Assembly (NCBI GenBank): GCA_027044945.1
Contig: JALUBK010000045.1
Location: 1-63,419 of the forward strand
Source of the DNA: Campylobacterales bacterium
GTDB taxonomy: Bacteria > Campylobacterota > Campylobacteria > Campylobacterales > JALSKU01
Length of the DNA stretch: 63,419 nt
Direction: 5' to 3'
Within the stretch, counting starts at the first letter, position 1. Each line of letters starts with the position of its first letter. Below, piece by piece: positions 1,834 to 32,361 of this stretch. The translations under genes were made by a program, and so were the position numbers. Under the pieces are notes generated by a model. It saw nothing but the letters and a program-made list of their open reading frames with translations. It had not been told where the DNA came from and did no database searches.

Positions 1834-2519
1834 TTAATTTTATCCAGCATTGATATTAAAAAATCAGCACTATTTTTAGCTGAACTTTTCAAAAATTCAT
1901 CAAAATCAAAACCTGCATCCATATCTGCTGCATCACTAATAGCTCTAAGGATAAAAAATGGCACTCTTAAAGAGTATGCAACAACTGCTACACTAGCACC
2001 CTCCATCTCCAATGCATCTGCTTTAAATTTTTTTCGTATCCACTCTTTTTTTTCTTTATTAGCTACAAATTGATCTCCTGTTGCAATAATACCTTCTTTT
2101 AATTTAATACCTTTTTCTTTTGCAATATCTATCGCAATTTTTATCAAAGTTTCATCTGCTTTGTAATAAATTTTTCCTTCAGGAACATATCCATAAGGAT
2201 GCCCAAAAGCTGTAATGTCAAGATCATGCTGACATAAAGCAGTAGCCACGATAAGATCTCCTATATGTAAATCATTATTTATAGCTCCAGCTACTCCACT
2301 AAAAAGAAGTTTTTCTATTTTAAATTTTTCTATCATTATTGTAGCAGTCAAAGAAGCATATACTTTCCCAATTTTGCTATAAGCTATAACAATATCATTA
2401 TCTTTATATTTTGCAATATAATATTTATTATCAGCATAATCAACAGTTTCATATTCTTTAAAAAATTTCAAAAGAGGTTCAATCTCTTCTTGCATTGCAC
2501 CCATCAAACCTATAATCAT
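1830..2519 (-). CDS. mtn: 5'-methylthioadenosine/S-adenosylhomocysteine (and aminodeoxyfutalosine) nucleosidase
   Basis: The 229-aa protein is full length for the MTAN/Pfs family. It hydrolyses the N-glycosidic bond of MTA and SAH in the cytoplasm, releasing adenine. Visible signatures are GAMQEEIEPLL at 7-17 (the conserved catalytic Glu region), SGVAGAINNDLHIGDL near 74-89, the substrate-binding EMEGASVA near 171-178 and RAISDAAD (catalytic Asp) near 193. In Helicobacter and Campylobacter the same enzyme acts on 6-amino-6-deoxyfutalosine in menaquinone synthesis (MqnB role), and I infer that also here. It overlaps both neighbours by 4 nt. Confidence 0.95.
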   Translation of the reverse strand: MIIGLMGAMQEEIEPLLKFFKEYETVDYADNKYYIAKYKDNDIVIAYSKIGKVYASLTATIMIEKFKIEKLLFSGVAGAINNDLHIGDLIVATALCQHDLDITAFGHPYGYVPEGKIYYKADETLIKIAIDIAKEKGIKLKEGIIATGDQFVANKEKKEWIRKKFKADALEMEGASVAVVAYSLRVPFFILRAISDAADMDAGFDFDEFLKSSAKNSADFLISMLDKIK

Positions 2520-3283
2520 ATATTTATCCTTAAAAGATATTTTTCCGTTTTAGAAAGTGTTTTAGAAAGTTTTCCTATTAAAAGTGTTTCGTCAAACAAA
2601 GAGGCTTCTTGTTCAATATCTCCTTTTGGATTTATTATTTTACTTCCGCCCCAAAAACCAAGCCCATCTTCAAATCCAACTCTATTTGCAAAAACAATAT
2701 AAGTTCCACTTAATTGTGCAGTAGTAGAAAGAATATTATTCCATTTTTTCTCTATAGACAAACCGTTATTTTTAAAAACTCTAGCAGGAGAAGAAGCAAG
2801 CACATAAACAATATCAGGTTTAATGGAAACTATTTTTTCTATAATTTTTGAATTCCACAAATCTTCACAAATAACACTCATACTGTTTGCATATTTTGTT
2901 TGAAAATTCTCTACCGTATCTCCTGAAAAAAAGAATCTTGCTTCTTGAAATAATCCATAATTTGGAAGAGTATTTTTATGATAAATATTGGTAACTTTAT
3001 TATCACTAAAATAAATTGCACTATTATAAATTTTATATTTTTCTCTTAATGCTACGCCCAATAAAATATCGATATCTTTACTTGCTTTTTTAAAAATTTC
3101 TAACTCTTCAATTTCATATGCATCTTCAAAAACTAAATCCATCATAGTGTATCCGTTTAAAGATAATTCAGGGAAAATCACAATATTACAATTTTCATAT
3201 TTTGCTTTATTGATAAATTCTAAATGTTTATCAATATTATCTCTTGATAGTTTTGATGAAATTTGAGCAATTGCAACTTTCAT
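2516..3283 (-). CDS. Carbon-nitrogen hydrolase (nitrilase superfamily amidase)
   Basis: The 255-aa single-domain nitrilase-fold protein keeps the Glu-Lys-Cys triad: Glu39 in FPELSLNGY, Lys103 in YHKNTLPNYG and Cys139 in ICEDLW. The motif style resembles glutaminase domains of NAD synthetases and N-carbamoyl or omega-amidase enzymes, but no synthetase domain is attached and the substrate cannot be read from sequence. It lies between fabD and mtn with a 4-nt overlap to mtn and a short gap to fabD, so it is co-transcribed. Compare the paralogue at 28650-29447, which lacks the catalytic Cys. Confidence 0.85.
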   Translation of the reverse strand: MKVAIAQISSKLSRDNIDKHLEFINKAKYENCNIVIFPELSLNGYTMMDLVFEDAYEIEELEIFKKASKDIDILLGVALREKYKIYNSAIYFSDNKVTNIYHKNTLPNYGLFQEARFFFSGDTVENFQTKYANSMSVICEDLWNSKIIEKIVSIKPDIVYVLASSPARVFKNNGLSIEKKWNNILSTTAQLSGTYIVFANRVGFEDGLGFWGGSKIINPKGDIEQEASLFDETLLIGKLSKTLSKTEKYLLRINI

Positions 3284-27526: not shown

Positions 27527-28653
27527 TAACCGCCCTTTAAAAATTCAGATATTCTTTGCAATGCCTGTTTTGTTTTTTCTTCACTCTCTACAAGAGCAAT
27601 TCTAACATTTTTGCTACCTTGCTTATCACGAGAAAGAAAGCTTCCTGGCAGGACTTTAAGATTTTTATTTTTATATAATTTTTTTGTAAATTCTATATCG
27701 TCTTCTACTTCAAACCAAATATAAAATGTTGCTTTTGGAATTTCTATTCCCAATATTTCTTTCGCAATTTCAAAATTTTTTCTATATTTATTTCTATTTA
27801 TTTCCACATGTTTTTCATCATTCCAAGCTACTGCTGCAGCCTTTTGAAGAGGCAAAGGAACCGCACATCCAGTATATGTTCTATATTTTGAATATTCTTT
27901 CAATATATCACTGTCTCCAGCTATAAAACCACTTCTAACTCCGGGGGCTGAGCTTCTTTTGGATAAAGAATTAACAACTAAAATATTTTTATACATTTTA
28001 TTTCCAAATTTCATAGAAGCTTCCAAGAGAGATGGTTGTTTTTGTAAATATATTTCATTATAACATTCATCATTAAGCAATACAAAATTATATTCAAGAG
28101 CTAATTCAATCCAAGGTTTATATTCATCTATACTCATGGTCGATGCAGTTGGATTGTTTGGAAAATTTAAAATCACCAAATCAACATTTTTCAACTTTTT
28201 TTTATCAATAACAGGCTTGTAATTATTTTCTTTAGTTAAATTTATATAAATGCTTTTTGCTTTACAAGATATCGCCGCTCCTTCATATATTTGATAAAAA
28301 GGATTTGTATAAGCCATTATCGGATTTTTTTTATCATGAAGTAAAAATTGAGGAAAATTAAAAAGAATTTCCCTTGTTCCAAAAGAAGGAACAATTTCAT
28401 TTTCTTTTAATTTAACTCCAAATCGTTTATTTACAAAATTTATCATTGACTGCTTTAAAAACAGTTCTCCTGAAGTTTTTGCATATTTATTTAAAAGATT
28501 ACTATTTTTACAAAGTTCATCTTGTATAAATTTTGGAGTTTCAAATTGTGGCTCACCTATGGTTAAACTTAAAGGCTCAAGTTCTTTATTTGGAATAACA
28601 TTTTTTAAAAGTTTGTTCAATCTTTCAAACGGATAATCATTGAATTTTATCAT
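27523..28653 (-). CDS. dapC: Succinyldiaminopimelate aminotransferase (class I/II)
   Basis: The 376-aa PLP aminotransferase has NFPNNPT at 163-169, DECYNEIY near 195-202 and the PLP Lys232 in NSLSKRSSAPGVRSG. Class I/II enzymes of this type in Campylobacterota serve DapC in the succinylase branch, and the window also holds dapD and dapE, which supports that role. It overlaps murC and the next gene by 4 nt. Confidence 0.88.
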   Translation of the reverse strand: MIKFNDYPFERLNKLLKNVIPNKELEPLSLTIGEPQFETPKFIQDELCKNSNLLNKYAKTSGELFLKQSMINFVNKRFGVKLKENEIVPSFGTREILFNFPQFLLHDKKNPIMAYTNPFYQIYEGAAISCKAKSIYINLTKENNYKPVIDKKKLKNVDLVILNFPNNPTASTMSIDEYKPWIELALEYNFVLLNDECYNEIYLQKQPSLLEASMKFGNKMYKNILVVNSLSKRSSAPGVRSGFIAGDSDILKEYSKYRTYTGCAVPLPLQKAAAVAWNDEKHVEINRNKYRKNFEIAKEILGIEIPKATFYIWFEVEDDIEFTKKLYKNKNLKVLPGSFLSRDKQGSKNVRIALVESEEKTKQALQRISEFLKGGY

Positions 28654-29447
28654 AATTGTTCTCTTTTTTTAATTTGTGCCAAAAAACCCCAATCTTTTTT
28701 TGCTTCTTTTGAAATATTTTTATCAATAGGGGCTATTAACATCTCTTCTTTATGACCTAACATATACTGAAGTTCTCCATTTGGAGTAGCCAAAAAGCTT
28801 TCTCCATAAAATTTCCAAGAAACATCATCTTTTACATATTCGCCTATTCTATTGGCTCTTAATATATAAACACCATTTAAAAAAGCTCTTGTTTTGATAA
28901 TTTCAGCCCATCTTTGTTCTGATCCAAAAGTGCTAACTGTTGGTAAAAGAACCAAATCAACTCTTTTTTTTAATATTTCAAGCCAAACACTGTCAAAATG
29001 AAGCTCATAACCATTTATGGCGGCAATTTTAAAACCGTTAATATTGAAAATCATTGGAATATATTTTTTATCTATTTCATTATCAAAAAATTTATTCTCA
29101 TTCCAATGGTTAAAATTGATAAGATATTGTTGATTTTGATAATACACTGATTTTGGAGTAAATCTTGCAATGCTTTTATAAATTTTATCTTTTTTAAAAG
29201 TTACAATAGGTGCTATAATAGTAATATTATATTCTTTTGCTAATTCTTTTAAAATCATAATTTTATGTTTTGATTGTTCTTTTATCATCATTTTAGACAT
29301 ATTTTCAAGTTCTTTAAAAAAACTATTCAAATTATATTCCCCAAGAAGAACTAAAGAAATATCTCTTTTTTTACAAATTATTAAATAATAATCAAGTTTA
29401 GCCTTGCTCATGGGTAAAGTAGAAAGCTGGAGTGCGGCTACTTTCAA
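28650..29447 (-). CDS. Nitrilase-fold protein lacking the catalytic cysteine (probable pseudoenzyme)
   Basis: The 265-aa protein has the nitrilase fold: it starts KVAALQLSTLP, keeps the Glu37 of the triad in LLGEYNLN, and ends with VDLVLLPTVSTFGSEQRWAEI and GVYILRANRIGE. In the position where active homologues have IC-Y/D-E, the sequence is INGYELHF: residue 146 is Gly (codon GGT at 29012-29010) instead of Cys. The Lys position also seems to be Gln. If the alignment is right, it cannot hydrolyse amides, and a structural or binding role is more likely. It is translationally coupled to dapC and xseB (4-nt overlaps), so it is expressed and under selection. Confidence 0.8.
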   Translation of the reverse strand: MKVAALQLSTLPMSKAKLDYYLIICKKRDISLVLLGEYNLNSFFKELENMSKMMIKEQSKHKIMILKELAKEYNITIIAPIVTFKKDKIYKSIARFTPKSVYYQNQQYLINFNHWNENKFFDNEIDKKYIPMIFNINGFKIAAINGYELHFDSVWLEILKKRVDLVLLPTVSTFGSEQRWAEIIKTRAFLNGVYILRANRIGEYVKDDVSWKFYGESFLATPNGELQYMLGHKEEMLIAPIDKNISKEAKKDWGFLAQIKKREQL

Positions 29448-29644
29448 GACTCATTCTCACTAATTTTCGATAATTCTTCAAACTCTATTTTAGCATTTTC
29501 AAGCATTTTGGAAGCTTCTTTTAATTCTTTTATGCCCTCTTTGTAAAATTTCATACTATTTTCAAGAGTAATAGAAGGATCCATTAATTTATCAAGTATT
29601 TTTTTAGATTCTTCTATTTTTTGTTCAAAATCTTTCGCTTTCAT
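29444..29644 (-). CDS. xseB: Exodeoxyribonuclease VII small subunit
   Basis: The 66-aa protein is a helical coil of the XseB type (FEQKIEESKKILDKLMDPSITLENSMKFYKEGIKELK; usual length about 65-80). It makes part of ExoVII, which degrades single-stranded DNA; the large subunit xseA is not in the window. Its ribosome site AAGGA lies inside an RNA hairpin described separately. Confidence 0.9.
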   Translation of the reverse strand: MKAKDFEQKIEESKKILDKLMDPSITLENSMKFYKEGIKELKEASKMLENAKIEFEELSKISENES

Positions 29645-29713: not shown

Positions 29714-31171
29714 TTATTTTATTTCTTTCTGTTTATGAGCCATTATTTCTCTTTTTTCTTGAAGCATACCGTCTAAAATATCAAAAAGTTTTTCACTCTC
29801 TTTTTCTGCATTTTTAAAATTTTCAATCAACTCTTTTTTATGTTCCAAAACAATATCTTTAGGATAAATGAAACTTATATTTTTTGATAAATATCGATGA
29901 ATTTCTTTATGTGGTTCGTCTATCAATGGATATTCTTTTGTATTACTAAACATATCTTTAGCATCTTTTTTAAGCCATTTTCCAAAATGACAATTATTAT
30001 AATCGGCAAAATCCATCTCTTTTTTGCTTTTAAAAACAGATGTATAAGCTTTTGATTTATATATAATATGGTCAATTTTTGCAAGTATTATATCCATTGT
30101 GTTTTCAATATTTACAGCTTCAAGAGAAGTTTTTATAGAATCTTTGTTAAAATTTTGGAAAACTGATTTCAACTCTTCTATGACAATATTTGATTGTGTT
30201 GCTATTTGTGTCATTTCGTTTGAACCTGATTTGATCTCTTGTGCTTCTTGTTGAAGAGTTTGTATTGATATTGAAATTTCTTGAGTTGCTTTTTGTGTTC
30301 TTTCAGCCAATTTTCTTACCTCATCAGCAACAACAGCAAAACCCCTTCCATGTTCTCCAGCTCTTGCGGCTTCAATAGCGGCATTTAAAGCCAAAAGATT
30401 TGTTTGACTAGTTATATCGTTTATCAATTCTACTACAGATGATATTTCGTTTGTTTTTTCATTTAATGACTCAATTCTTGAATTTGATGATGAAATATTT
30501 TCAATCAAATAATTAGTTTTTTCTATAGTATCATTTATTGTATCAAGACTTTTTGTTGATTTTTCAGCGGTTTCTTGTGCTTTTGCTACAATATTTTTAG
30601 TGCTTTCAATTCCTTTTGATAAATCATCTTGTATAATTATCATACCACCTGTTATCCCTCGTCCAATTTCACCAAGATGAGCATTAAGAGTTGTTCTTTC
30701 AATATATTTTTCATTTTCACACATCTCATCTATAGTCCTATTAGTCATTTTAGCATTATTTTTAAATGCACCATTTAATTTATCTGTTCGAACTTTTTTA
30801 GAAAATATTTTTTTACTTGCATTTTCTATAGATGCTTGTGTTTCTTCCATAAAAAATTCTATCTGATTTAAAAAACTATTTATGTTTAAACTAAGTTCTT
30901 TAAGCTCTCCTTCGTCTTTATTATGGGTTATTCTTCCAGATAATTCTCCTTCATCAGCATTTTTTATAATTTTTGCTACATTTTTAACAGCACTCTGAGC
31001 TTTTCTAATATTGATAAACATATACCATGCAAGTGCAAAATTTGACATATTGACAATTCTTATCATATCAAAACCATAATGATGTATTTCAATAATCAAT
31101 ATTACTGTAAATATACTCAAAGATGCTATATTTGCATATTGCACTTTGGAAAGTGAAGATATTTTTTTCAT
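29714..31171 (-). CDS. Methyl-accepting chemotaxis protein with CZB domain
   Basis: The 485-aa chemoreceptor has two N-terminal hydrophobic segments (about 14-28 and 42-55) with almost no periplasmic loop, a HAMP-like linker, a signalling domain with the conserved hairpin tip ([20 protein letters not shown], 258-277), and a C-terminal zinc-binding CZB domain (about 365-432). The CZB ligands are visible: His368, Cys394 in NCHFGKW, His421 and His425. CZB receptors sense zinc or oxidants (such as HOCl) in the cytoplasm. No ligand is predictable from this sequence. AAAAGGACTTGA precedes the ATG. Confidence 0.93.
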
Positions 31172-31260: not shown

Positions 31261-32360
31261 TTATTTCAAAGCTTCACTGATATATGGAACAAATTTTTCA
31301 ACTTCAACCAAAAAGGCATCGTGTCCATAATCACTATCTATACAATGATAATCTACTAAATTACCTTTATTTATCTTTTTCATACTTTTTTGAATCTGCT
31401 CCATCTCTTCTTTAAAAAATAGTTGATCGCTTTTTACAGATAAAAGTGTTAAATGACTTTTTATATTAGAAAATGAGTCTTCCAAAGAATCATAATTTCT
31501 ACTCGCATCAAAAATATTGATAGCTTTTGTGATATATAAATAACTTAGAGGGTCAAAATATTTTGAAAAGTTATAACCATTATAATCAAGATATCTTTCC
31601 ACTTGAAATCTTCCAAAAAGTTCATATAATCCCTCAGTTTCAACATAATTTCTACCAAATTTTTTCTGCATTGAATTTTCGCTCAAATAGCTTATATGCC
31701 CACTCATTCTTCCTATTGCCAAACCATTAAGTCCATTTTCTTTTATATCTTTTACATCATACATTCCGCTATCAAATTTAGGATCTTTTATAATGGCTTC
31801 TCTTGCTACTTTGTTAAATGCAATAGCCCAAGGTTGAGTTGCATAAGTGGAAGCTATAATGATATTTCTTTTTGTAAAATGAGGATATTCTATAGCATAA
31901 CAAAGTGCTTGCATACCACCCATTGAACCACCAATAACAGCATAAACTTCATAAATACCAAGCGAATCCAAAAGACTTATTTGTGCTTTTACCATATCAC
32001 TTATAGTAATCACAGGAAATCTCAATCTATATGGTTCATTTAACGGATATTTTAAAGACATAGGACCTGTTGAGCCGAAACAACTTCCTATAACATTTGC
32101 ACAAATTACAAAATATTTTGTGGTATCTATACATTTGCCATCGCCTATCAAATCATTCCACCATCCAGGTTTTCTATCTCCCTCATAAAGTCCGGCAGCA
32201 TGATAACTTCCTGTAAGAGCATGGCAAATAACAATCACATTACTTTTATCTTTATTTAATTCTCCGTATGTTTCATACGCTATATCGTATGGTTCGAGTA
32301 TTCTACCGCTTTCTAAATATAAAGGAGTTTTAAAATGTTTAGTAACGGTAGTTATTTTCA

Positions 32361-32361
<1 letters not shown>
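31261..32361 (-). CDS. metX: Homoserine O-acetyltransferase
   Basis: MetX acetylates (or in some lineages succinylates) homoserine for methionine synthesis. The 366-aa alpha/beta hydrolase has the nucleophile elbow GGSMGG with Ser146, KSDQLF with the acid residue near 315, and DYGHDAFL with the His near 348. Some members of the family use succinyl-CoA; the substrate is not settled here. It overlaps the guaB stop by one base (TAATG). Confidence 0.92.

Follow-up and report, generated by a model that had tools for sequence, protein, structure and literature searches.

A Campylobacterales Branch of the Nitrilase Superfamily Without the Catalytic Cysteine and With a Conserved Pocket

The Locus and Its Genes

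The window, meaning the whole 63,419-nucleotide stretch of DNA analysed here, contains a gene for a nitrilase-fold protein that lacks the catalytic cysteine of its superfamily; the gene, its key codons and its neighbours are collected in Table 1. It begins with a TTG start codon, which shares the letters TTGA with the TGA stop of xseB. Further upstream lies metX, separated from xseB by a chemoreceptor gene (29714-31171, reverse strand) with an MCPsignal domain and a CZB zinc-binding domain. In a near relative (L001), metX and xseB are directly adjacent, which marks the chemoreceptor gene in the window as a local insertion.

The window's genome encodes four CN hydrolases, and the cysteine is present in the other three. 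One of these is a paralogue within the window, which an earlier interpretation of the DNA letters (hereafter, the sequence-only reading) had described as Cys-bearing, and it does carry cysteine at aligned position 146. Its top NCBIfam profile is NAD+ synthase, with 142 bits, far below the cut-off of 479.

Table 1. Features of the locus and the paralogue used for comparison.
Feature	Positions	Strand	Observation
Cys-less nitrilase-fold protein, Cj1056c orthologue (C. jejuni)	28650..29447	-	265 aa open reading frame
Codon 146, GGT (Gly) at the place of the catalytic Cys	29010..29012	-	Gly 120, Ala 2 of 122 orthologues
Gln106, place of the catalytic Lys	29130..29132	-	Gln 112, Ala 3, Ser 3, Pro 4 of 122; Lys never
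Lys91, family-specific	29175..29177	-	Lys in 122/122 orthologues; Asn in 26/28 Cys-bearing paralogues; pairs with 106 by hairpin register
Glu37, equivalent of the general-base Glu, kept	29337..29339	-	122/122 orthologues
Glu117, equivalent of the second catalytic-site Glu, kept	29097..29099	-	122/122 orthologues
xseB, conserved upstream neighbour	29444..29644	-	NCBIfam TIGR01280 above cut-off; TTGA overlap
metX, usual neighbour of xseB	31261..32361	-	Chemoreceptor gene between metX and xseB in the window
Cys-bearing nitrilase paralogue, NadE-glutaminase-like, comparison	2516..3283	-	Profile matches and alignment

Fold, Superfamily and Known Relatives

The nitrilase superfamily is built on one catalytic tetrad. 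The protein encoded at 28650-29447 matches the Pfam profile PF00795 (CN_hydrolase) with 60.5 bits at a cut-off of 23.2. Its predicted structure (pLDDT 75, pTM 0.79, with low confidence at residues 111-122 and 172-176) matches chain 9wpo_D with a Z score of 26.0 and an rmsd of 3.3 over 246 aligned residues, and the other listed entries of the superfamily with Z scores of about 19.5-22. These values agree with the earlier statement that the nitrilase fold is kept. In the NCBIfam scan, every model remained far below its own cut-off. The top profile, TIGR03381 (AguB), gave 58.3 bits where its cut-off demands 410.25, which leaves the protein outside this equivalog group. AguB-type enzymes (N-carbamoylputrescine amidases) share the fold and both glutamates with the window protein, which, unlike them, has neither the cysteine nor a lysine at the usual place and belongs to a separate clade. 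As judged from profiles and a predicted model, the protein is a homologue of the superfamily by fold and sequence, and it is not classed here as an active C-N hydrolase.

Cj1056c of Campylobacter jejuni belongs to the same orthologue group (E value of 7e-66, 46% identity), and the signature residues are common to both proteins. Its crystal structures, 9WPN and 9WPO, were released on 2025-10-08, with PDB titles that name only a 'nitrilase superfamily protein'. Like the window protein, the Cj1056c chain has the equivalents of Gly146, Lys91, Gln106, the HWNE motif and Glu148, and no essential difference between the two was seen. One study tabulates genes carrying human-associated amino acids and includes cj1056c, annotated as a putative carbon-nitrogen hydrolase family protein, together with a remark, taken from another study, that its expression is modulated at low pH (PMC5841378). 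Among open-licence papers, none was found on the missing cysteine of the family or on the function of Cj1056c.

Absence of the Nucleophile at Position 146

Residues were read in 122 distinct orthologues, out of about 345 genomes with the gene: the first 72 comprise the window and a first set of loci, and the 50 added later were picked for divergence or from other genera. As controls, 28 CN hydrolases, 3 from the window's genome and 25 from 12 genomes without the orthologue, were aligned with the 72 orthologues.

The strand that should bear the nucleophile reads INGYELHF, with Gly146 in place of cysteine, as the sequence-only reading had stated. The alignment of homologues that it proposed as a check finds cysteine absent at this position in all 122 Campylobacterales orthologues, while by the same alignment method all 28 paralogues have it. 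Alanine replaces glycine in only two of the 122 orthologues, L056 (G245) and L192 (G023). Among the first 72 orthologues, all four glycine codons are used (GGT 23, GGA 21, GGC 12 and GGG 15, the remaining one being alanine), and therefore the glycine itself is under selection. A different cysteine in the active site, which had been named as a possible refutation, was not found either: when the alignment columns of the 122 orthologues were scanned, the fullest cysteine columns held 51, 49, 20 and 20 cysteines. No column exceeds 51 of 122, and therefore there is no substitute cysteine. Since the cysteine is absent, standard thioester chemistry is not available, and the protein almost certainly operates without the covalent chemistry of nitrilases.

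Changes at Position 106 and the Family-Specific Lys91

The suspected change of the lysine position is confirmed as well, with Gln106 in place of lysine and Lys106 in none of the 122 orthologues. No conserved lysine was found near it, in columns 98-118 of the 122 orthologues; in the first 72, examined over columns 96-120, the fullest lysine column is 119, with lysine in 38. It is mainly this whole stretch without a conserved lysine that argues for the loss of the residue in the family. The 28 paralogues have Lys (16), Arg (2) or Gln (10) at residue 106, and the 10 with Gln are YafV-type sequences, which have a gap before the motif and a lysine two columns later. The column assigned to the old lysine is less sure than the cysteine column, because these 10 of 28 Cys-bearing paralogues also have Gln there, next to a gap.

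At position 91, where lysine is fixed in the family, 26 of the 28 paralogues have asparagine; the two exceptions are a truncated sequence and one that is gapped in this stretch. In the predicted model, strands 88-96 and 101-103 are joined by a turn at 97-100, and the pairing of 96 with 101 sets residue 91 opposite residue 106. Cross-strand partners have their side chains on one face of a hairpin. Cys-bearing relatives whose motif is free of gaps have the pair Asn91/Lys106, and the Cys-less family has Lys91/Gln106, which suggests that the catalytic lysine may have shifted to the neighbouring strand. From the register of the hairpin, not from coordinates, we infer that Lys91 would point into the pocket.

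Conserved Residues and Selection

Both glutamates of the catalytic site, the general-base equivalent Glu37 and the second one, Glu117, are invariant among the 122 orthologues, and the same holds for Tyr38, Trp115, Arg179 and Trp180. Near-invariant residues are His114 (120 of 122), Glu148 (121, with Asp once), His150 (120), Arg197 (120, with one gap and one Gly) and Tyr214 (120, with one gap and one Met); Ser176 is nearly fixed in the family. The dN/dS ratio was calculated for 10 pairs by the Nei-Gojobori method with a custom script. It is 0.104 between the window and L001, 0.091 between the window and L002, and 0.017-0.079 for seven other pairs, the tenth pair being saturated. By these ratios, the family is under strong purifying selection, and the pocket is, to judge from its residues, selected and rebuilt rather than decayed. 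The term pseudoenzyme, used in the sequence-only reading, is therefore only partly adequate. The cysteine is gone and the fold is kept, hence no standard thioester chemistry; however, the protein is not simply dead, with both glutamates invariant, a new Lys91, and fixed histidine, arginine and tyrosine residues.

Distribution and Origin

Among 397 genomes of the class, all within the window's own order, the protein encoded at 28650-29447 used as query found an orthologue in 345 (E value of at most 9e-32). The other 52, counted manually, gave E values of at least 2.6e-11 or no match. These 52 consist of family f7 in its entirety (42 genomes), 6 genomes from genus g14, and the genomes G062, G082, G086 and G209. 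An earlier draw of 298 genomes, which overlaps the 397-genome set, also lies entirely within the window's own order. In one genome (G339, contig C103, 39797-40569), the orthologue match falls into two adjoining pieces, possibly due to a frameshift or an assembly fault. A search of 80 genomes from a single other phylum, to which the Gammaproteobacteria-labelled locus L004 belongs, gave a best match with an E value of 3.3e-12, and the top two matches carry the cysteine. No viral homologue was confirmed, and a scan against phage families yielded only one unnamed phrog.

A tree was built from 35 orthologues and 17 paralogues, hand-picked for spread from the 72 and 28 aligned sequences, respectively. 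In this tree, the family forms a single clade with 100/100 support, its stem being 1.6 changes per column long, and the AguB-, NadE-, YafV- and Lnt-type paralogues (our own labels, from profile matches and motifs) form their own clades. Thus, the description as a paralogue that lost its cysteine stands as far as the missing cysteine is concerned, but not in the sense of a paralogue of this genome, as the clade is old, separate and order-wide. The tree likewise gives no support to a recent duplication of the paralogue at 2516-3283. As read from the tree and the genome survey, the Cys-less family is an ancient, separate branch that is vertically kept in most Campylobacterales, including C. jejuni.

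Gene Neighbourhood

The gene's surroundings were read over about 9 kb in 20 other-genome regions, one of them shortened by a contig end; xseB is adjacent upstream in all 20 and metX is present in 19, with dapC and murC in 4 each. Over a wider set, xseB adjoins the nitrilase-like gene at 67 of 74 places (76 of 83 before nine same-genome repeats were removed, by our own count); family f2 accounts for six of the seven places where it does not, and a contig end for the other. Consequently, of the operon coupling to dapC, murC and xseB proposed earlier, only the xseB part is general, and the two other genes are local neighbours. A functional tie to DapC or MurC is thereby not general. In C. jejuni, the gene after Cj1056c is presumably not dapC.

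Neither does the family require metX, nor metX the family: the nitrilase-like gene is kept without metX in G161, G019 and G071, and metX next to xseB is retained in the genomes without the orthologue that were examined, namely f7 genomes and G086. The gene is absent from the whole family f7 (42 genomes), and the metX-xseB neighbourhood is kept in the f7 genomes examined. A small ThiF/MoeB-like E1 gene, noted at L070-L083, immediately follows the nitrilase-like gene in 11 of the 20 regions, as counted by eye; the top NCBIfam match of its product is ThiF, at about half of the model's cut-off. Dependence on this gene was rejected, as it occurs in f7 without the nitrilase-like gene, and the best match in the window's genome reaches only 7e-17. 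None of xseB, metX and the ThiF/MoeB-like gene is needed for the family, nor is the reverse the case.

Possible Roles of the Protein

We lean towards the reading that this is an ancient Campylobacterales nitrilase-fold protein with a rebuilt pocket, whose main role would be ligand binding, as a pseudo-amidase, rather than cleavage; the sequence-only reading's protein that binds but does not cleave thus remains the likeliest interpretation. The cysteine nucleophile would have been given up by the root of the clade, and the protein rebuilt around the remaining pocket, with Lys91 reaching in from the strand beside the lost lysine. A Glu-Lys-Glu cage with a glycine floor could then accommodate a small metabolite resembling an amide, carboxylate or imine, with no covalent attack on it, and the protein would sense, buffer or present this metabolite. 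Laboratory mutants offer a parallel. According to the PDB titles, nitrilase-fold proteins with the cysteine changed to alanine or serine are deposited with bound glutaramide (6YPA), nicotinamide (5NY7), butyramide (4IZS) and a peptide-like ligand (4HGD); like the window protein, they have a nitrilase pocket without the thiol, and therefore amides can occupy a site of this fold that has no cysteine. However, these are mutants of true enzymes, whereas the window's family lost its cysteine naturally and long ago, and its lysine site is changed as well.

The invariant polar residues are just as compatible with an active enzyme, and an enzyme with changed chemistry is the main rival to the ligand-binding reading, possible but on the unlikely side. 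In such an enzyme, the glycine would leave room for water or a second substrate, Glu37 would act as the base and Lys91 would handle the oxyanion or ammonia, so that hydrolysis or transfer could proceed without a thioester. The fixation of Glu37, Glu117 and Lys91 goes beyond what a mere binding protein need keep, the restriction of position 146 to glycine and alanine points to selected smallness, and His114, His150, Arg179 and Arg197 are fixed in addition. Yet no conserved cysteine column offers a new nucleophile in the 122 orthologues, and neither the fixed Tyr38 and Tyr214 nor the nearly fixed Ser176 is known to act as a nucleophile. We also know of no nitrilase-superfamily enzyme that works without cysteine, which counts against changed chemistry. 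Slightly more doubtful still is a natural, order-wide Cys-free enzyme of the nitrilase fold, in which cysteine catalysis would have been replaced: the glycine would give space to a second substrate or an activated water molecule, and the catalytic lysine would have shifted to the adjacent strand (from Asn91/Lys106 to Lys91/Gln106), with a non-covalent amide-processing or other reaction as the outcome.

It is rather improbable that the protein is a scaffold or a heteromer subunit, with a pocket of structural value only, that acts together with an active paralogue (AguB, NadE-like) or with a neighbouring gene product (XseB/ExoVII, DapC or MurC). The strong gene order with xseB would fit such a role, and related nitrilases of sorghum, NIT4A and NIT4B2, form heteromers, as described in PMC5154151; this is a possible model, from a plant system. 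On the other hand, few genomes have dapC or murC nearby, xseB and metX remain in genomes that have lost the nitrilase-like gene, the gene persists without metX, and many family-fixed residues belong to pocket motifs, by motif position and not by coordinates. As for a decaying pseudogene or a sequencing error at codon 146, the latter named by the sequence-only reading as a possible refutation, GGT is indeed one base from TGT, but we give this explanation practically no credence: it is ruled out by glycine or alanine in 122 of 122 orthologues, by the use of four glycine codons and by a dN/dS of about 0.1 between the window and two of its nearest relatives.

Significance

What is unusual here is that a superfamily based on one catalytic tetrad has a Cys-less branch, and that this branch is fixed across most of an order while selection acts on the remaining pocket. 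The host group includes common gut bacteria. As the C. jejuni orthologue is publicly available in two crystal forms, the choice between a ligand sensor and a new active site is directly addressable.
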